NCBI RefSeq assembly: GCF_000787855.1
Contig: NZ_BBPQ01000061.1
Span: 1 to 32,799, forward strand
Direction of reading: 5' to 3'
DNA from: Streptacidiphilus anmyonensis
GTDB taxonomy: Bacteria > Actinomycetota > Actinomycetes > Streptomycetales > Streptomycetaceae
Length of the DNA: 32,799 nt
The notes beneath the pieces are model-generated. The model was not told the DNA's origin. It made no database searches and saw only the letters and a program-made list of their open reading frames with translations. Positions within the stretch are counted from its first letter, which is position 1, and the number at the start of each line of letters is the position of its first letter. Positions 3,745-21,449 of the stretch are shown one piece after another. A program made the position numbers and the translations under genes.

Positions 3745-5115
3745 TCAGGATCTGATGAGCCGTCGCAGCAGCATGGTGGATGGCACCGGCCGCGCCCCCG
3801 CGGCCCGCACCCCATCCGCGACCTCGCGGTCCGTGGAGACCACCACGATCGGACGCCCCTCGGGCTCGGCCCGCACCAGACGGCGGATCAGCTCGTCCGC
3901 CGTCTCCCCGGTGCGGCTGAACAGCACCCGCACGCCGCGCGGCGGCGGCGCCATCGGAATCGGCCCGTCCAGGTCCTGGCCGTCGAAGACACAGGTGATC
4001 TCGGCGCCCGTCTGCGCCGCCAGCAGACCGAGCCCGCGCTGCAACTGCTGGCGCTGCCGGTCCAGCGGCATGCCGGGCCAGCCGGTCTTGGTGACGTTGT
4101 AGCCGTCCACCAGCAGATGCACCTGCGGCAGTTCGAGCAACTGGTCCAGCAGGGCCGGGTCGTCGCCCTCCAGGGCGCGCCGCGCCACGTCGTGCGGGGA
4201 GGCCGCCACCGGGGACACCGCGTCCACCGAGTCCGCCGGACGGCCGCTCAGCGGCGCCAGGCCCAGCTCGCGCTGGAGCCCCTGCGCGCCCTGCACGACC
4301 GTGTCCAGCAGCAGCCGCAGCCGCATCTCCTCGGTGGACCGCCCCTCGCGGGCGGCCCGCCGGGACGCCTCCAAGGCGGCCTCCAGCTCGGCGACCCGGT
4401 GCTTGAGCCGGCGCACCTCGCTCTCCTGGGCCCCGCGCTCGGTCGCCCCGGTCGACCGCATCGCGTCCAGCTCGGCCGCGGCCTTGCGGGCCGCCGCCTC
4501 GGCGCGCTTGGTGTCGGCGGCGAGCGAGCGCAGCTGGCGGCGCAGGCTGTCGCCCTCCTTCTTCAGCGCCTCCAGTTCGGCCTTGGCGTGCTCGGCGTCC
4601 GCACGGTGCGCGGCGCGCAGCGTGACCAGCTCGTCCTGGAGCTTCTCGGCGAGCCTGGCCGACTCGGCGGCGACGACCTCGTGCTCGGCGCGCTCGACCT
4701 CCTCGCCCGCCTCCCCGACGATCCGGGTCCACCCCGGCGTGCGCAGCAGGTACGCGGCCGCGGCCACGTCCTGCGGGTCGGCGGCGGCCGGGACGCTCCC
4801 GCCCTCCAGCGCGGCCACCAGGTCCGGCTGGCCCTGCCGGACGCGGTCCGCTATCCGCGAGCGGAAACCCGGCTCGGTCTCCAGCGCGGCGGCGATGGCC
4901 GTCGCACCGCGCTTGACGCGGGCGTCGCGGGTGAACTTCACATAGGGGCGCAGCCGGGCCGGCAGCTCGGCCGGGGTGAACGCGCCGAGGGCGTCGGCGG
5001 CGATGCCGACCACGCGCCTGCGCACGCCCTCGGGCAGCGGACGGTCCAGCGCCTCGACGCCCTCGGCGCCCTCCGCGCCGTCACCGGGCGCCGGCGTCTG
5101 GTCTCGCTGCTCCAC
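3745..5115 (-). CDS. NYN-domain (YacP/PIN-like nuclease-fold) RNA-binding protein
   Basis: This 456-residue protein has three parts. Residues 25-130 are an uncharacterised helical region (RLRPYVKFT). Residues 135-260 are a strong coiled coil rich in Glu, Ala and Arg. Residues 330-456 are a NYN domain. The NYN acidic residues are visible: Asp337 in LLVDGYN, Asp378 in CVFDGQ, Asp407 in ETADELI and Asp429 in VSTDRE. NYN proteins have a PIN-like fold and act on RNA, for example YacP/Rae1 in Firmicutes; the substrate here is unknown. There is no signal peptide, so it is cytoplasmic. The GTG start at 5113-5115 is preceded by GGAGCGGAAG. An elaborate inverted repeat lies in the leader. The gene follows the small zinc-ribbon gene on the same strand after a gap of about 120 bp. 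Confidence 0.88.
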   Translation of the reverse strand: MEQRDQTPAPGDGAEGAEGVEALDRPLPEGVRRRVVGIAADALGAFTPAELPARLRPYVKFTRDARVKRGATAIAAALETEPGFRSRIADRVRQGQPDLVAALEGGSVPAAADPQDVAAAAYLLRTPGWTRIVGEAGEEVERAEHEVVAAESARLAEKLQDELVTLRAAHRADAEHAKAELEALKKEGDSLRRQLRSLAADTKRAEAAARKAAAELDAMRSTGATERGAQESEVRRLKHRVAELEAALEASRRAAREGRSTEEMRLRLLLDTVVQGAQGLQRELGLAPLSGRPADSVDAVSPVAASPHDVARRALEGDDPALLDQLLELPQVHLLVDGYNVTKTGWPGMPLDRQRQQLQRGLGLLAAQTGAEITCVFDGQDLDGPIPMAPPPRGVRVLFSRTGETADELIRRLVRAEPEGRPIVVVSTDREVADGVRAAGARPVPSTMLLRRLIRS

Positions 5116-5139
5116 GTCTTCCGCTCCGATCCGCCACTA

Positions 5140-5185
5140 CTGTCCGGGCCCGGCTCTCGGTCCGCTCCCCGGACAGTCATTGTCC
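5140..5185 (-). promoter_or_regulatory. Inverted repeats in the leader of the NYN-protein gene
   Basis: CTGTCCGGG (5140-5148) and CCCGGACAG (5168-5176) form a perfect 9-bp inverted repeat with a 19-nt spacer. The second arm also starts a GGACA-N5-TGTCC repeat (5171-5185). The three TGTCC half-sites sit 25-70 nt before the GTG start. They could fold as alternative hairpins in the mRNA or bind a regulator. No known motif fits. Confidence 0.4.
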
Positions 5186-6803: not shown

Positions 6804-7985
6804 ATGAACATCAACGGCGCCATCGACGGCGTGGTACTGAAGGTCCTTCAGGCTTTCGGAGTCGAGCTGCCGGGCGGCGACGGGGACGTCCTGCGCTCCA
6901 TAGCCTCCGACTGGGACGGCATGGCCACCGATCTGGCGAACCGGGTCCGGGCGCTCGACGGCCAGGTGGCGTCGACCGGTCCCACCGAGTGGTCGGGACC
7001 GGCCCGCCAGGCCTTCGACCAGCACTGGCAGCAGCAGGTCAGCACGCTGAACGAGATCGCGGGCAATCTGCACAAGGTCGCCGACGGCCTGCGCCAGTAC
7101 GCGGGCGAGATCGACTCGATCAACCTCTCCATCGTCGACATCTGCGTGCAGATCGCGGAGATGGAGGCCGCCGGGGCGCTGCTCTCCCTGGCCACCGGCT
7201 TCATCTCCGACCTGGTCGCGGACACCGCGATCGCGGCCCGGGTCGCCAAGATCATCGACCTGGTCGCGCAGTTCACCCGCGCCGCGGAGAAGGTCTCCGA
7301 GGTGCTGAGCGAGCTCTTCGAGCTCACCGAGGAGAGCGCGGCCACGCTGACCAAGGTGCTCACCGCCTTCGCCAAGATCTCGGGCTCGGCGCTGCGCTCC
7401 GCGGGCGAGTCCTTCGCCGGCAACTTCGCAGCGGACACCGGCAGCATGATGATGAACCAGGCGCTCTCCGGCCAGAAGGTCGACGTGGGCGCCGACGCGA
7501 AGGACGGCGCCGTCGAGGCCGGCGGCTCGGCCGCCTTCGCCGGACTGACCGGCGGGATCGGCGCAGCGCCGGGCGTGTCGAGCAAGGTGGGCGACTTCCT
7601 GACCGGGGACGGGGGCAAGCTCAGCAACCTGACCAACGGCGCGCTGGGCAATATCGCCGGCACCGGTCTGGACGACTACCTCCACCCCAACCAGCAGCAG
7701 GGCAAGGACGCGACCGGCGTCACCGAGGACCTCGTCACCGCCGGGGTCACCGGCGCCTACGGCAACTCCCGCATCGACGACAAGCTGAACGGCCTCAAGG
7801 AGAAGGGGAGCTTCGGCGGCGCCAACCTGAGCGAGCAGGGGAAGCGCCTCGACTCCGCGTTCGCCTTCTCGGCCGGCACCGGCGACAACACGGCTGTCTA
7901 CAACGCCGGCTCGGGAGTCGAGTCGGACCTGGAGAACCTCCAACAGGAACAGCAGAAGCTCGCAGGACAGGAGCCCGGCCAGTGA
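6804..7985 (+). CDS. WxG-containing type VII secretion-associated protein
   Basis: This 393-residue protein begins with a helical WXG100-like domain (about 1-125) bearing two W-x-G motifs, Trp37-Asp-Gly39 and Trp63-Ser-Gly65. Two long hydrophobic/amphipathic helices follow (about 125-215). The remainder (about 220-393) is Gly/Ala/Asp-rich, with blocks such as GGSAAFAGLTGGIG, and ends in a Gln/Glu-rich tail. The arrangement resembles the delivery part of LXG/WXG polymorphic toxins, but no recognisable toxin domain follows; the protein stops where one would be expected. It may be a structural effector or a toxin scaffold without a warhead. It is coupled by a GTGA overlap to a small membrane protein and follows the EspC-like gene. 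Secretion is inferred from the motifs. Confidence 0.78.
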   Translation: MNINGAIDGVVLKVLQAFGVELPGGDGDVLRSIASDWDGMATDLANRVRALDGQVASTGPTEWSGPARQAFDQHWQQQVSTLNEIAGNLHKVADGLRQYAGEIDSINLSIVDICVQIAEMEAAGALLSLATGFISDLVADTAIAARVAKIIDLVAQFTRAAEKVSEVLSELFELTEESAATLTKVLTAFAKISGSALRSAGESFAGNFAADTGSMMMNQALSGQKVDVGADAKDGAVEAGGSAAFAGLTGGIGAAPGVSSKVGDFLTGDGGKLSNLTNGALGNIAGTGLDDYLHPNQQQGKDATGVTEDLVTAGVTGAYGNSRIDDKLNGLKEKGSFGGANLSEQGKRLDSAFAFSAGTGDNTAVYNAGSGVESDLENLQQEQQKLAGQEPGQ

Positions 7986-8242
7986 GCACCCTCCCCTCCT
8001 CGACGTGGCCTCTGGCGGGCGGCAGCATCCCTCCACAGGGCGGCGGCGGCCACGGCAGCATGCACTGGGGCCTGCTCGTCGGCGTTCCGCTGATCGCGCT
8101 GGGCCTGCTGCTGGCGGGCTGCGGGCTCGTGCTCGCCGTGAAGCTGGCCAGGACGGCGACGAAGCCGGTCCAGCACCTGCTCGGTCCGTTCTTCCTGCTC
8201 CTGGGAGCAGGAATCGCCGGGCTCGGGTTCTGGCTCGCCTAG
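7982..8242 (+). CDS. Small two-helix membrane protein coupled to the WxG gene
   Basis: This 86-residue protein has a Gly/Ser/Pro-rich N-terminus (residues 1-26) and two hydrophobic helices (about 29-52 and 66-86) joined by a basic loop (KLARTATKPVQ). The GTG start overlaps the stop of the WxG gene (GTGA) and has AGGAG 8 nt upstream, so translation is coupled. No family is recognised. Possible roles are a membrane partner, chaperone or immunity-like protein for its neighbour; none can be chosen from the sequence. Confidence 0.72.
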   Translation: MSTLPSSTWPLAGGSIPPQGGGGHGSMHWGLLVGVPLIALGLLLAGCGLVLAVKLARTATKPVQHLLGPFFLLLGAGIAGLGFWLA

Positions 8243-8278
8243 CATGGTCAGCGCATGCCCCCGCCGACAGGAGACTCC

Positions 8279-8560
8279 GTGATCACCGCCATCGTGCTCG
8301 TCAAGACCAGCGTCGACCGGATCCCCGAGATCGCCGAGCAGATCGCCGCGCTGGAGAGCGTCACCGAGGTCTACTCCGTCACCGGCGGCTGGGACCTGAT
8401 CGCCATCGTGCGCGTCCGCGCCCACGAGGAGCTGGCCGATGTGATCCCCGGTCAGGTCAACAAGGTGCCCGGCGTGGAGCACACGGAGACCCACGTGGCC
8501 TTCCGCACGTACTCCAAGCACGACCTCGACGCGGCGTTCGCCATCGGCCTGGACGACTAG
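8279..8560 (+). CDS. Stand-alone Lrp/AsnC-type ligand-binding (RAM) domain protein
   Basis: This 93-residue protein matches the C-terminal effector domain of Lrp/AsnC regulators (TAIVLVKTS..EVYSVTGGWDLIAIVRV..VEHTETHVAFRTYS) and has no DNA-binding helix-turn-helix. Such single-domain proteins form ring-like oligomers and bind amino acids or other small molecules. I chose GTG at 8279 because AGGAG lies 5 nt before it and the family starts with the strand ITAIVLVK; an ATG at 8255 is also in frame but gives an unlikely Pro-rich extension. The gene is 36 bp after the small membrane protein and convergent with the class V PLP enzyme. Its ligand is unknown. Confidence 0.88.
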   Translation: MITAIVLVKTSVDRIPEIAEQIAALESVTEVYSVTGGWDLIAIVRVRAHEELADVIPGQVNKVPGVEHTETHVAFRTYSKHDLDAAFAIGLDD

Positions 8561-8580
8561 GCCCTCTCCGGCGGCGCCGC

Positions 8581-9948
8581 TCAGCGGCGGGTGTCCGGCA
8601 CGCAGCGGCCGCCCTCGGTGCGGTAGGACCACGCCGAGCCGCTGCCGACCAGCTCCCGCACCGCCGCCAGGAACCGGTCCACGTGCTCCTCCGGCGTGCC
8701 CGCGCCGAAGCTCACGCGGATCGCGTTCAGGCTGCGCTCGCCCGGCAGCGACGGCTCCGGCGCGCCGCACTCGCTGGGCGCCGTCTCCTCGCCGCCCAGC
8801 AGTGTGCGGACCAGCGGGTGCGCGCAGAACAGGCCGTCGCGCACGCCGATGCCGTACTCGGCGGAGAGCGCCGCGGCGAAGTGCGAGCTGTTCCAGCCCT
8901 GCACCACGAAGGAGAGCACACCGACGCGCGGGTGATCCTCCCCGAAGAGCGTCAGCACCCGCACCTCGGGGACCTCCGCCAGCCCGGCGCGCAGCCGCTC
9001 GATCAGCTGCTGCTCACGCGCGTGCAGGGTGTCCAGCCCCGCCTCCGCCAGCGCCCGGCAGGCGGAGGCGATGGCGTACGCGCCGATGACGTTCGGCGAG
9101 CCGGCCTCGTGCCGCGCCGGGCCCCGGTGCCACTCGACGGCCACCGATCCGTCCGTCTCCCGCGCGACGGTGCGGCTGGCGCCGCCGCCCGCCAGGTAAG
9201 GCTCCGCCGCGTCCAGCCAGTCGGCGCGCCCGGCCAGCACGCCCGCGCCGAACGGCGCGTACAGCTTGTGTCCCGAGAAGGCCACCCAGTCCACGTCCAA
9301 CTCCCGCACGGAGACCCGGTGGTGGGGCGCGAGCTGGGCGGCGTCGAGGACGATCCGGGCGCCGTGGCCGTGGGCCACCGCGGCCAGCTCGGCGACCGGC
9401 CAGATCTCCCCGGTCACGTTGGACGCGCCGGTGACGCAGACCAGCTTCGGTCCGGGACCGGCCGCGTCCAGCGCGGCGTCCAGGGCCGCGACGGCCTCCC
9501 GCGGGGAGCGCGGCGCGCGCAGGTAGGCGACCTCCAGCCCGCGGCCCGGCCAGGGCAGCAGGGACGCGTGGTGCTCGGTCTCGAACGCGAAGACCCGGGT
9601 GCCGCTCGGCAGCGCGCCGGCCAGCAGGTTGAGCGAGTCGGTGGTCGCCCGGGTGAAGACGACCTGGTCGTCCTCACGCAGGTCCAGGAACTCGGCGACG
9701 GTCGCGCGGCTCTGCTCGAACAGGTCGGTGGAGAGCTGCGAGAGGTACCCGGCCCCGCGGTGCACGCTGCCGTAGTAGGGCGCGTAGGCGGCGACGTCGT
9801 CCCACACCCGCTGGAGCGCGGGCGCGCTGGCGGCGTAGTCGAGCGCGGCGTAGCCGACCTTCTCGCCGTTGACGAGCGGCACCTCGACCTCGCGGCCGAG
9901 GACGGGAAGGGGCTGACAAACAGTGACATTACGGGCGGCGACAGACAT
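8581..9948 (-). CDS. Class V PLP-dependent enzyme (cysteine desulfurase/aminotransferase-like)
   Basis: This 455-residue cytoplasmic enzyme has the class V (SufS/CsdA-like) fold. The PLP-binding lysine is Lys228 in FSGHKLYAPFG, the ring-pairing aspartate is Asp202 (VLDAAQ), and the His pair in FETEHHASLLPW fits the family. Cys375 (DGLFCAHP) lies where desulfurases carry their active-site cysteine, but its flanks differ from the usual RxGHHC or GSSC. Desulfuration of cysteine or a related lyase reaction is therefore possible rather than proven. An extra segment (about 384-404, with PSECGAPEPS) follows. The ATG at 9946-9948 has a GGAGGTACC ribosome-binding site. It is convergent with the Lrp-domain gene, and the upstream 400 bp holds only a doubtful small ORF and a repeat. 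Confidence 0.9.
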   Translation of the reverse strand: MSVAARNVTVCQPLPVLGREVEVPLVNGEKVGYAALDYAASAPALQRVWDDVAAYAPYYGSVHRGAGYLSQLSTDLFEQSRATVAEFLDLREDDQVVFTRATTDSLNLLAGALPSGTRVFAFETEHHASLLPWPGRGLEVAYLRAPRSPREAVAALDAALDAAGPGPKLVCVTGASNVTGEIWPVAELAAVAHGHGARIVLDAAQLAPHHRVSVRELDVDWVAFSGHKLYAPFGAGVLAGRADWLDAAEPYLAGGGASRTVARETDGSVAVEWHRGPARHEAGSPNVIGAYAIASACRALAEAGLDTLHAREQQLIERLRAGLAEVPEVRVLTLFGEDHPRVGVLSFVVQGWNSSHFAAALSAEYGIGVRDGLFCAHPLVRTLLGGEETAPSECGAPEPSLPGERSLNAIRVSFGAGTPEEHVDRFLAAVRELVGSGSAWSYRTEGGRCVPDTRR

Positions 9949-16531: not shown

Positions 16532-18046
<1,515 letters not shown>

Positions 18047-18143
18047 CGCACGCCACCTCGCTCCGCGAAGAGGGCTGACCACCGACCGGGAGCGGCCGGA
18101 AACCGTCAGTGAAGCAGAGCCCGATCTTCGCGCATAGAGCGCG

Positions 18144-20078
18144 TCAGTTCCGTTCGCACACGCTCTCCAGGTGGGCGCCGATCCGGCCGAGGAACTCCTC
18201 CCAGCGCGCCACGAACTCCGGGTCGTGCGGGGACATCCCCGTCGCCATCCGGGTGACCTGCGGCAGCAGCGTCGGATAGCTGGCCAGGCCGAAGCACATC
18301 AGCCGGAACAGCGCCGGGTCGAGCTCCGGATCGAGGCGACCGGCGGCCTGCCGTCGGGCGATCTCGGCGATCTGCGCCCGGATGACGGGCGTGCGCTCCT
18401 CCTCGCGCGGGATCGGCCGGTCGCCGTAGGCGAGCGCCTCGCGCTGGAGGTAGGCGAGCCACGCCGCGTCGGCCTCCTCCTGGTGGCGGTAGTGGAACGC
18501 GAGGAACTCCCCGAACGGCTCCGGCGCGTGCCCGGCCCGGTCCAGGCGCTGCCCGCGCACCCGGGTCAGCAGCTCGTTGAAGAGCTGGTCCCCCACCCGG
18601 CCGCCGGTCGCCAGGAACATCGACCAGGCGAAGCCGCCCGCCCAGCCGGGCAGCCGCTCGACGAGCGCGTTCGCGGGCTGCCCCGGCGCCTGCGGCATCC
18701 GGTACACCAGGAACGCCGCCGCCAGCAGCAGCACCGCGCTCAGCGGCATCAGCTCGCCGAACGCGGTGGCGTAGGCGGCTCCGTGGGTCGCCGTCCCGAC
18801 CAGGGTGAAGTAGGTCAGCCCGAACAGGGCGACGCCGAGCACGTTGCCCGTCTGCATCGAGGTGGTGACCACCCCGGAGGCGCCGCCCGCGTCCTTCGGC
18901 GGGACGCTGGAGAGGATCGTGCCGACCAGCGGGCTCATGCCCAGGCCCTGGCCGACGCCGGTCAGCAGCATGGTCGGCGCCAGCGCCCACACCGACAACG
19001 AGGCGCCGGCGGCGGCCGCCGTCGCGGCCGTCCCGAACAGGCCGAAGGCGGCCAGCACGTAGCCGATGGCCAGCACGTGCCGGCCCAGCACCGGTACCAG
19101 CCGGGGGGCCAGCAGCGAGGTGCAGAAGAAGCCGACGGCGCTCGGGGTGTAGACGAGCGCGGACTTCAGCGGCGAGAAGTCCAGCCCCGTCTGGAGGTAC
19201 ACCGCGAGGGTGAACAGGAAGCCCGCGTACGACAGCTGGAACAGCACCGCGATCGGCACGCCGCTCGCGAAGCCCCGATTGCGGAAGAGGTCCAGCCGTA
19301 CCAGCGGCTGCCCGCCGCGGGCCGCGACCCTCGTCTCCCAGCGCAGGAACGCCCAGCCCACCGGGAGCGCCGCGACCAGCATCAGCACCAGCCACAGCGG
19401 CCAGCCCTGGTCCCGGCCCAGCAGCAGCGGCACCGAGAGCAGCAGCAGGAGCGCCGTCACCAGGCCCGCGCCGCCGAGGTCCAGCCGGGTCCGCGACTCG
19501 TCGCGGTCGTCCGGCAGCCACAGCAGGGCGGCCACCGCGGCCAAGACGCCGACGGGCACGTTGACCAGGAACACCGGCCGCCAGGTCCAGCCGAACAGGT
19601 CCAGCGCCAGCAGCGCGCCGCCGATCAGCTGCCCGGCGATGGCGGCGATGCCGATCACCGCGCCGAACGCGCCGAGCGCCCGGCCGCGGGCCTCGCCCTG
19701 GTAGCTGGTCTGGATGATGGCCAGCACCTGCGGGTAGAGCATCGCGCCGCCCACGCCCTGCAACACGCGCGCGACCACCAGCACGGCGATGTCCGGGGCC
19801 GCCCCGCACAGCGCCGAGGCGGCGGTGAACACCAGCAGCCCCGCGACGAACATCCGCTTGCGCCCGAGGATGTCCCCGAGCCGCCCGCCGGTCACCAGCA
19901 GCGAGGCGTAGGCGATGGTGTACGCGGACACCACCAGCTCCACCGCCCCGAACCCGGCGGAGAGGCCGGAGCGGATCGACGGGATCGCCACGTTGACGAT
20001 CGCCACGTCCAGGATCGCCATGAACGTGCCGACCAGCACGATCGGCAGAACGAATCTCCCACTGTCCCCGCGCGCCAC
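18144..20078 (-). CDS. DHA2-type MFS exporter fused to a TetR-like ligand-binding domain
   Basis: This 644-residue fusion begins with a 14-helix drug:H+ antiporter of the DHA2 type (residues 1-461). It shows motif A in GGRLGDILGRKR (64-75), the D-x-x-x-V-N motif near residues 24-29 and antiporter motif C-like Gly-rich helix 5. After a short linker, residues about 490-640 look like helices 4-9 of a TetR-family regulator: GDQLFNELLTRVRG, an AWLAYLQREAL helix, TPVIRAQIAEIARRQAAGRLDPELDPALFRLMCFGLASYPTLLPQ, and a final RWEEFLGRIGAHLE helix. The TetR helix-turn-helix (about 50 residues) is absent, and the 30-residue linker leaves no room for it in any frame. The frame is uninterrupted with normal codon use. 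The tail may sense substrate and gate the pump. The GTG start has GGGGGAGGG upstream. Substrate unknown. Confidence 0.85.
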   Translation of the reverse strand: MARGDSGRFVLPIVLVGTFMAILDVAIVNVAIPSIRSGLSAGFGAVELVVSAYTIAYASLLVTGGRLGDILGRKRMFVAGLLVFTAASALCGAAPDIAVLVVARVLQGVGGAMLYPQVLAIIQTSYQGEARGRALGAFGAVIGIAAIAGQLIGGALLALDLFGWTWRPVFLVNVPVGVLAAVAALLWLPDDRDESRTRLDLGGAGLVTALLLLLSVPLLLGRDQGWPLWLVLMLVAALPVGWAFLRWETRVAARGGQPLVRLDLFRNRGFASGVPIAVLFQLSYAGFLFTLAVYLQTGLDFSPLKSALVYTPSAVGFFCTSLLAPRLVPVLGRHVLAIGYVLAAFGLFGTAATAAAAGASLSVWALAPTMLLTGVGQGLGMSPLVGTILSSVPPKDAGGASGVVTTSMQTGNVLGVALFGLTYFTLVGTATHGAAYATAFGELMPLSAVLLLAAAFLVYRMPQAPGQPANALVERLPGWAGGFAWSMFLATGGRVGDQLFNELLTRVRGQRLDRAGHAPEPFGEFLAFHYRHQEEADAAWLAYLQREALAYGDRPIPREEERTPVIRAQIAEIARRQAAGRLDPELDPALFRLMCFGLASYPTLLPQVTRMATGMSPHDPEFVARWEEFLGRIGAHLESVCERN

Positions 20079-20147: not shown

Positions 20148-21449
20148 TCAGGCGCTGGGACGCAGGTACCCGACGCTCGTCGTCAGGGCCGTCCCGGACG
20201 CGCCGGCTCCGCCGCCGGTCACCGCCGCGGGGTCGGCCGGGCTCGTGGTCACCGTGCGGCCGAGCGCGCTGCCCTGCTGCCACGCCGACCAGCTGAGGTT
20301 CCAGTCGCCGTAGCCGTTGCCGAAGGGCTCCATCTCGTGGCCGAGGCTGTGGACCACCTGGACCAGGTCGCCGCGGTGGAAGGTGTCGTAGAACCACTCG
20401 GCGTTGCCGGTGCTCATGCCGGTGCAGCCGTGGCTGACGTTGGCGACGCCCTGCGAGCCGACCGACCACGGCGCGGCGTGCACGTACTCGCCGCTCCAGG
20501 TGACCCGGGTGGCCCAGTAGACGTCGAGGGCGTAGGAGTTGGAACTGCCCGCGGCGATGCCGACGGTGGAGGAGTTCATGAAGACCTCCTGCTCCTGCTC
20601 CAGCACCACCTTGATGCCGTTGCGGGTGGAGAAGCCCGGCTTGCCGGTGGTGATCGGGATGGACCGGATCTCCTGGCCGTTGCGGTAGACGGTCATGTAG
20701 TCGCTGCCCGCGTCGGTCAGGGCGAGCATCCGGTCGCCGGTCCTGAAGGCGACGGAGGCCGGCGCGCCACCGTAGAGGCCGCTCTGCACCTTGGCCCCGC
20801 CGAGGTCGAACGCGGCCTGGATCACGGCGTGCGCGGGCCAGTAGTCCTTCGGCCGGAAGTGCAGCGTCTTGTCGTCCACCCAGTACCAGGCCCCGGTGAC
20901 CGAGGGCGTCGACCGGACGGTCAGGGCGGTCTCGACGATCTTCCGGGCGGCCGGGTCGTGGACGGGCTGGCTGAGCGCGACCGTGATCGGCTCGCCGACG
21001 CCGTAGACGCCCTTGTCGCCGGGCGTCATGACGGCGGTGAGGGTCGACGTCGCCGCGAGGGTGGTGAAGCTCTTCTGGACCCCGCCACGGCCGTCCCCGC
21101 CGCCGTCCGCCGCCGCGACCTTGACGGTGTAGTGGGTGCCCGCCGCGAGCGCCCCGGTGGAGCGCCAGGAGCGGCCGTCCGCCGCCAGCTGCCCCGCCAC
21201 CTGGCGGCCCGTGTCGGAGACGACGGTGACGTCGGTGAGCCTGCCGCCGTGCTGGGCGGTGACCACGACGGGCAGCGACGGGTCCACGCTCCCGCCGCCG
21301 TTCGGGGAGATCTGCACCAGCCCGCTCGCGTCGACCTGCTGCTCAGGGCCGACGTCCCGGCCGCTGCAGGCGGCCAGCGCCAGGGGACCGGCCGTCAGAA
21401 CCACACCGGCGATGACATTGCGAGCCCACACCGTGCTTCCCGGCTTCAT
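20148..21449 (-). CDS. L,D-transpeptidase lipoprotein with Ig-like domains (LdtMt2-like)
   Basis: This 433-residue lipoprotein has a signal helix ending in a lipobox, LAAC (Cys28). Two Ig-like domains (about 45-130 and 133-235) lead to a YkuD catalytic domain (about 240-372) with His324 in YVHAAPWS and the active-site motif SHGCTGM (His340, Cys342). The C-terminal stretch (373-433) includes NLSWSAWQQGS, matching the extension that packs on the YkuD domain in mycobacterial LdtMt2. It forms 3-3 crosslinks between diaminopimelate residues in peptidoglycan and can resist most penicillins. It lies upstream of the MFS fusion on the same strand, 69 bp apart, but the operator-like repeat between them suggests separate promoters. 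Confidence 0.95.
   Translation of the reverse strand: MKPGSTVWARNVIAGVVLTAGPLALAACSGRDVGPEQQVDASGLVQISPNGGGSVDPSLPVVVTAQHGGRLTDVTVVSDTGRQVAGQLAADGRSWRSTGALAAGTHYTVKVAAADGGGDGRGGVQKSFTTLAATSTLTAVMTPGDKGVYGVGEPITVALSQPVHDPAARKIVETALTVRSTPSVTGAWYWVDDKTLHFRPKDYWPAHAVIQAAFDLGGAKVQSGLYGGAPASVAFRTGDRMLALTDAGSDYMTVYRNGQEIRSIPITTGKPGFSTRNGIKVVLEQEQEVFMNSSTVGIAAGSSNSYALDVYWATRVTWSGEYVHAAPWSVGSQGVANVSHGCTGMSTGNAEWFYDTFHRGDLVQVVHSLGHEMEPFGNGYGDWNLSWSAWQQGSALGRTVTTSPADPAAVTGGGAGASGTALTTSVGYLRPSA

Follow-up and report, generated by a model that had tools for sequence, protein, structure and literature searches.

In the classic pairing of TetR regulators with MFS pumps, the drug is sensed by the regulator and exported by the pump. 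A stretch of 32,799 nucleotides of Streptacidiphilus anmyonensis DNA (RefSeq contig NZ_BBPQ01000061.1, positions 1 to 32,799; hereafter the window) contains a gene in which an MFS exporter runs in frame into a TetR-like tail, and it raises the questions of which part of a regulator has been retained, whether the tail is maintained and what it could do for the pump. The boundaries of the 644 aa gene with its GTG start (Table 1) agree with the coordinates given in a preliminary description of the locus. The gene is on the minus strand, and the purine-rich sequence GGGGGAGG lies immediately upstream of the GTG.

Table 1. Positions in the window of the fusion gene, its parts and two neighbouring genes
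Feature	Position	Strand	Remarks
Whole fusion gene	18144..20078	minus	644 codons + stop; GTG start at 20078, stop at 18144-18146
Exporter part, residues 1-461	18696..20078	minus	14 membrane helices, DHA2/EmrB-like
Junction, residues 462-497	18588..18695	minus	Core 470-497 = NALVERLPGWAGGFAWSMFLATGGRVGD, one of the best conserved stretches
TetR-type C-terminal domain, residues 498-640	18159..18587	minus	Six predicted helices (TetR alpha 4-9); profile and model evidence
Cytosine/purine-type permease (Transp_cyt_pur)	16532-18082	minus	Separates the fusion gene from the cytochrome b gene
L,D-transpeptidase (Big_10 + YkuD)	20148-21449	minus	Adjoins the cytochrome oxidase subunit IV gene

Exporter, junction and TetR-type domain

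Residues 1-461 had been assigned to a 14-helix DHA2 exporter, and this type was borne out by MFS_1 (Pfam), which covers residues 15-415 (E 2.4e-49), and by a model of the whole protein in which, once split helices are merged by hand, there are 14 membrane helices up to residue 459. Hydropathy alone gave 20 peaks and an ambiguous helix count for the pump. The best NCBIfam model for the pump was TIGR00711 EmrB, at 189.8 bits against a curated cut-off of 230.2. In matching MFS_1 and in having EmrB as its best model the pump part is like the DHA2 drug:H+ antiporters of the EmrB/EfpA/LmrA group, from which the score below the cut-off sets it apart. EfpA (8ufd) and EmrB (8zal) align to the pump over 453 residues with 26% identity and over 451 residues with 23% identity, respectively. 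In a structure comparison of the whole-protein model, MFS chains fill the best 50 entries, among which there was no TetR chain and no row reaching the tail. K and R account for 18 of the 88 residues assigned to inner loops versus 2 of the 53 assigned to outer loops, a bias that favours a cytoplasmic position for the tail.

Residues D24, R66, D69 and R73 (12 of 12 aligned copies) and G149-Q150..G153-G154 are invariant, and we take these to be residues typical of drug antiporters. Proton-coupled drug export is a putative activity of the fusion protein. The invariance of these residues, together with the finding that Pfam identified no DNA-binding or other output domain in the protein and 14 tails, argues against the protein being a pump-derived receptor and not a working exporter, a reading that is very improbable even though such receptors exist (yeast Rgt2/Snf3; abstract of PMC12740885).

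The tail had been described as about 150 residues resembling helices 4-9 of a TetR regulator, with residues 465-644 suggested for comparison with TetR_C families. Its TetR-like character was upheld, with homology shown from approximately residue 498 and not from 465, residues 462-497 being a separate, strongly conserved junction. TetR_C_21 (Pfam), which has a cut-off of 26.2 bits, matches the tail alone with 28.2 bits (E 2.3e-6) and falls just below this limit within the whole protein (25.8); it was found at E<=1 in 14 of 14 tails, the best at 5.2e-7. When the PDB was searched with the single tail sequence, the lone match was a weak one to 2d6y (E 0.08), and a profile of the 14 tails matched 2d6y as the sole chain with E 3.1e-9, over tail positions 76-153 that include the P.E.ER motif. 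Comparison of the tail profile with 18 free TetRs using hhalign gave a probability of 99.7 and E 8.1e-26 (one pairwise comparison). The tail profile also scores 115-118 bits against L093-L095, three free TetRs that belong to a different family in the phylum, over a region that begins at the GGK/GGR motif and extends to helix 9. The whole-protein model has six tail helices in the order seen in TetR. On this profile and model evidence, residues 498-640 are homologous to TetR C-terminal domains.

The helix-turn-helix (HTH), also described earlier as gone, is not recognisable in the protein. TetR_N (PF00440) was absent at E<=1 from the whole protein and from 14 of 14 tails, and when a profile of 18 free TetRs is aligned to the fused copies, the match begins no earlier than profile position 53-73, the start at 53-56 in most copies lying past the HTH of the free-TetR profile and at approximately residue 498 of this protein. 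It is virtually certain that a DHA2-type exporter and a TetR C-terminal domain lacking the DNA-binding part are encoded by one gene. Production of a free tail from an internal start was ruled out, as no Shine-Dalgarno-like motif precedes any of 7 candidate internal starts at residues 444-507.

In the whole-protein model, the junction has pLDDT under 50 with short helices at 471-474 and 480-490, and no contact between tail and pump can be read from this model. Residues 470-494 are a candidate for an eroded TetR helix 2-3. When they were compared without gaps to helices 2-3 of free TetRs (23 TetRs, 17 distinct blocks), offset 0 scored best in 12 of 14 sequences (shuffle p 0.0006-0.016), and a different offset scored higher in L041 and L042 (p 0.07 and 0.10). 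However, the scores in this register (-0.7 to -13.4) fall far short of the 59.5-77.1 reached by real HTHs, and a segment starting at residue 509 of the same protein scores higher.

Distribution, relatives and gene neighbourhood

Full-length fused copies number 15 and were found in Streptacidiphilus, Streptomyces, Actinacidiphila, one further Streptomycetaceae genus, a Streptosporangiales MAG and a Rhodospirillales MAG. As the same fused frame is open in all of these, a chance frame or a frameshift artefact was ruled out. Eleven of them are the complete loci among 13 confirmed, from 39 matching stretches, when the GTDB collection, described by the tool as covering 84,980 species, was scanned with a pattern, the others being the window, G037, G050 and G003. 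The 13 GTDB loci comprise five from Streptacidiphilus, two from Streptomyces, two from Actinacidiphila, two from Streptosporangiales/Streptosporangiaceae MAGs and two from proteobacterial MAGs (one Rhodospirillales). Two further fused copies are incomplete, L038 being cut by a contig end and L039, from a proteobacterial MAG, interrupted by an insertion. The L039 insertion (~5030-5140) is ~110 bases long with long terminal inverted repeats, of a small mobile-element type, and a transposase-like gene (DDE_5) is found at 7495-8799 of the same locus.

In a sample of 394 genomes from the family, the tail had a match at E<=1e-5 in 53. Twelve places match most of the tail (48-100% identity) and all 12 are fused, and the architecture recurs elsewhere in the Streptomycetaceae and, as the GTDB loci show, outside the family; the next 18 loci (31-42% identity) are free TetRs with the HTH block. 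Inspection covered these loci and, among the weaker matches, one piece in G042. The order sample (293 genomes) gave 5 fusions, all within the family, and one free TetR-sized frame; the phylum sample (396 genomes) gave the gene's own fusion and 5 free TetR-sized frames; and the class sample (394 genomes) gave only the gene's own match, these four samples overlapping one another. Two records in a plasmid collection were TetRs at 31% identity. A TetR_C_21 search of 121 genomes found 76 with matches at E<=1e-6, a limit that the fused tail itself does not reach, and few long frames were present among the matches listed; MFS-TetR fusions of separate origin may exist elsewhere.

When 200 genomes were searched with the exporter, the tail was present in 11 of 11 matches at ~60% identity or more. 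Among the matches listed, the next 19 with loci retrieved (~41-47% identity; weaker listed matches, one at 48%, were left out of this count) all lacked it, so that 19 of 19 unfused Streptomycetaceae exporters examined differ from the fusion in having no tail. Among the matches listed, no intact pump of the fused clade lacked the tail or carried a decayed version of it. In midpoint-rooted trees, the fused proteins form one clade for the pump (15 fused and 19 unfused; support 100/99), and the fused tails form one clade for the tail (17 tails and 23 free TetRs; 100/99), with L093-L095 as the nearest free TetRs on a branch with all tails at 98/96. From these trees the fusion looks to have arisen once, a single origin being the simplest reading, and the joined gene spread as a unit. 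The copies in proteobacterial MAGs suggest transfer between phyla, with binning errors possible.

The free TetRs L093-L095 are like the tail in their C-terminal domain and in being paired with an MFS exporter, an overlapping MFS gene lying downstream on the same strand in each case. However, TetR_N is present in the two that were scanned, and the MFS gene is separate and follows the regulator instead of preceding it. TetR_N was present in all three free TetRs scanned (L100, L101 and L102). Of the downstream MFS genes, the one in L100 overlaps the TetR gene (MFS_1 E 1.4e-42) and is a separate gene of ~400 codons; L101 has a downstream MFS gene in part (MFS_1 E 1.9e-29), and L099 has a downstream frame with the same sequence start as that of L100 (translation only). 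The chain 2d6y, which we take to be SCO4008 of Streptomyces coelicolor, shares the P.E.ER motif region with the tail but is a separate regulator, with 202 residues in the entry, whereas the fused tail lacks an HTH and belongs to a pump. A title in the reference lists of PMC4258057 and PMC3924187 states that SCO4008 regulates sco4007 via multidrug recognition, and a passage of PMC3924187 describes sco4007 as a putative MFS exporter of hydrophobic cationic compounds. Because of this pair and the gene pairing at L093-L095, the relatives of the tail are considered to be sensors that control MFS pumps.

In five named Streptacidiphilus loci, terminal oxidase genes are followed by the fusion gene and then by a cytochrome b gene on the other strand. 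The L,D-transpeptidase gene before the fusion gene was picked directly in four Streptacidiphilus loci, and in L035 this stretch was merged by the gene picker. The Transp_cyt_pur permease gene intervenes in the window and in L031-L033, and in L034 and L035 the cytochrome b gene comes directly after the fusion gene. The neighbours differ in other clades (GMC oxidoreductase, SnoaL-like, LtrA, AMP-binding enzyme, amino acid permease, NADH dehydrogenase, amidohydrolase and others), and the neighbourhood points to no particular substrate. In Streptomyces sp. Tue6028 (L040:6585-7646), an AMP-binding enzyme gene starts just where the fusion gene ends, an arrangement that resembles translational coupling.

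Two loci have a free TetR from the group of the profile close to the fusion: in G003 (L058) it lies upstream, and in L036 it lies downstream on the opposite strand. This would fit if the tail were a membrane-held partner that forms mixed dimers with a separate TetR and pulls it off DNA, linking the pump to gene control. However, the free-TetR profile found no such neighbour in the window or in the remaining loci searched, and the tail profile found no second relative better than E 0.16 in the gene's own genome, where 3 other TetR_C_21 genes exist. Such a partnership is improbable.

The site between the L,D-transpeptidase and cytochrome b genes varies within the genus as to whether the fusion gene is present. 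It is present in 8 of 14 genomes of the genus sample, and in five others no trace of it was found between these two genes. G042, of the Streptacidiphilus group, retains a 34-residue tail remnant with 64.7% identity (L087:3412-3513) between the L,D-transpeptidase and permease genes; here, deletion took the pump and tail together.

Selection on pump and tail

Purifying selection acts on both halves of the protein. Using the Nei-Gojobori method on 12 pairs, dN/dS was 0.14-0.54 for the tail, for which such a test had been suggested earlier, and 0.12-0.40 for the pump, the absolute values being rough estimates owing to high GC. Constraint was weaker on the tail than on the pump in 11 of the 12 pairs. 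The tail is most strongly conserved at 481-500, 541-560 (consensus WLxYLxREALxYG..PxPxE) and 601-620, and pairwise distances for pump and tail are correlated (r 0.95, slope 1.2, 105 pairs).

The preliminary description had left room for the tail being a functionless leftover of an accidental gene fusion. The tail does evolve ~1.2 times as fast as the pump, but it is in frame in 15 of 15 full-length copies across two phyla with dN/dS well below 1, pumps of the clade were seen intact only with the tail among the matches listed, and loss within the genus removed both parts together (34 residues left in G042, none at the site in five genomes). This alternative is therefore strongly disfavoured and scarcely credible. 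As the fused frame is shared, each half forms a single clade, the halves diverge in step and purifying selection operates, the fusion is neither a product of chance nor a decaying leftover.

Possible action of the tail on the pump

The preliminary description had proposed a substrate sensor that gates transport or dimerises the pump. Most likely, the tail acts on the pump as a cytoplasmic module that responds to a ligand and/or dimerises. Members of the TetR family dimerise through their C-terminal domain, and a pure dimerisation or stability scaffold that pairs two pumps via TetR helices 8-9, with no sensing role, would agree with this and with the presence of 601-620 (the end of helix 8) among the most conserved tail stretches. 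However, 541-560 lies away from helices 8-9 and is likewise strongly conserved, and the kin of the tail are known or likely drug sensors, making a scaffold alone rather unlikely.

Ligand-responsive control of the pump by the tail is the working mechanism, with its chances evenly balanced. A DHA2-type exporter appears to have acquired once, in covalent form, a TetR ligand-binding and dimerisation domain without the DNA-binding part, and the tail would be positioned in the cytoplasm after helix 14. The exported or a related compound would bind the tail, and/or the tail would pair with that of a second pump through helices 8 and 9, the TetR dimer-making helices. The change could then be relayed via the conserved junction (470-497) to helix 14, so that the presence of substrate leads to activation or loading of the pump. 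Thirty-three pump positions are conserved in fused and rare in unfused proteins. Membrane helices account for 28 of them, the linker and the outside for 2 each, and an inner loop for 1; the 7 positions in helix 14 and the linker rest on unfused alignment rows that end early. As only one of the 33 is in an inner loop, no docking surface is indicated, which counts against the mechanism, as do the low-confidence junction with no readable tail-pump contact in the model and the weaker constraint on the tail in 11 of 12 pairs.

A word-matching search of the open PMC literature found no description of an MFS-TetR joined form, which is weak evidence; both parts are of known kinds, and on this evidence the joined form is what appears new. 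In contrast to the classic arrangement of separate regulator and pump, the sensing fold is here joined to the pump and the DNA-binding domain is absent. Its retention in numerous species suggests that the drug-sensing fold of a regulator was reused for direct pump control. We tentatively propose, with the chances somewhat against it, that a TetR drug-sensing domain freed from DNA may have become a covalent allosteric substrate sensor of the type of pump that its relatives control by transcription, export control having moved from gene to protein in one fusion that was long kept and spread between phyla. If the tail senses substrate, the fusion would provide a testable case of protein-level control of a drug exporter by a domain from the exporter's own regulator class, and would show that a sensor fold as common in bacteria as almost any other has a second use.
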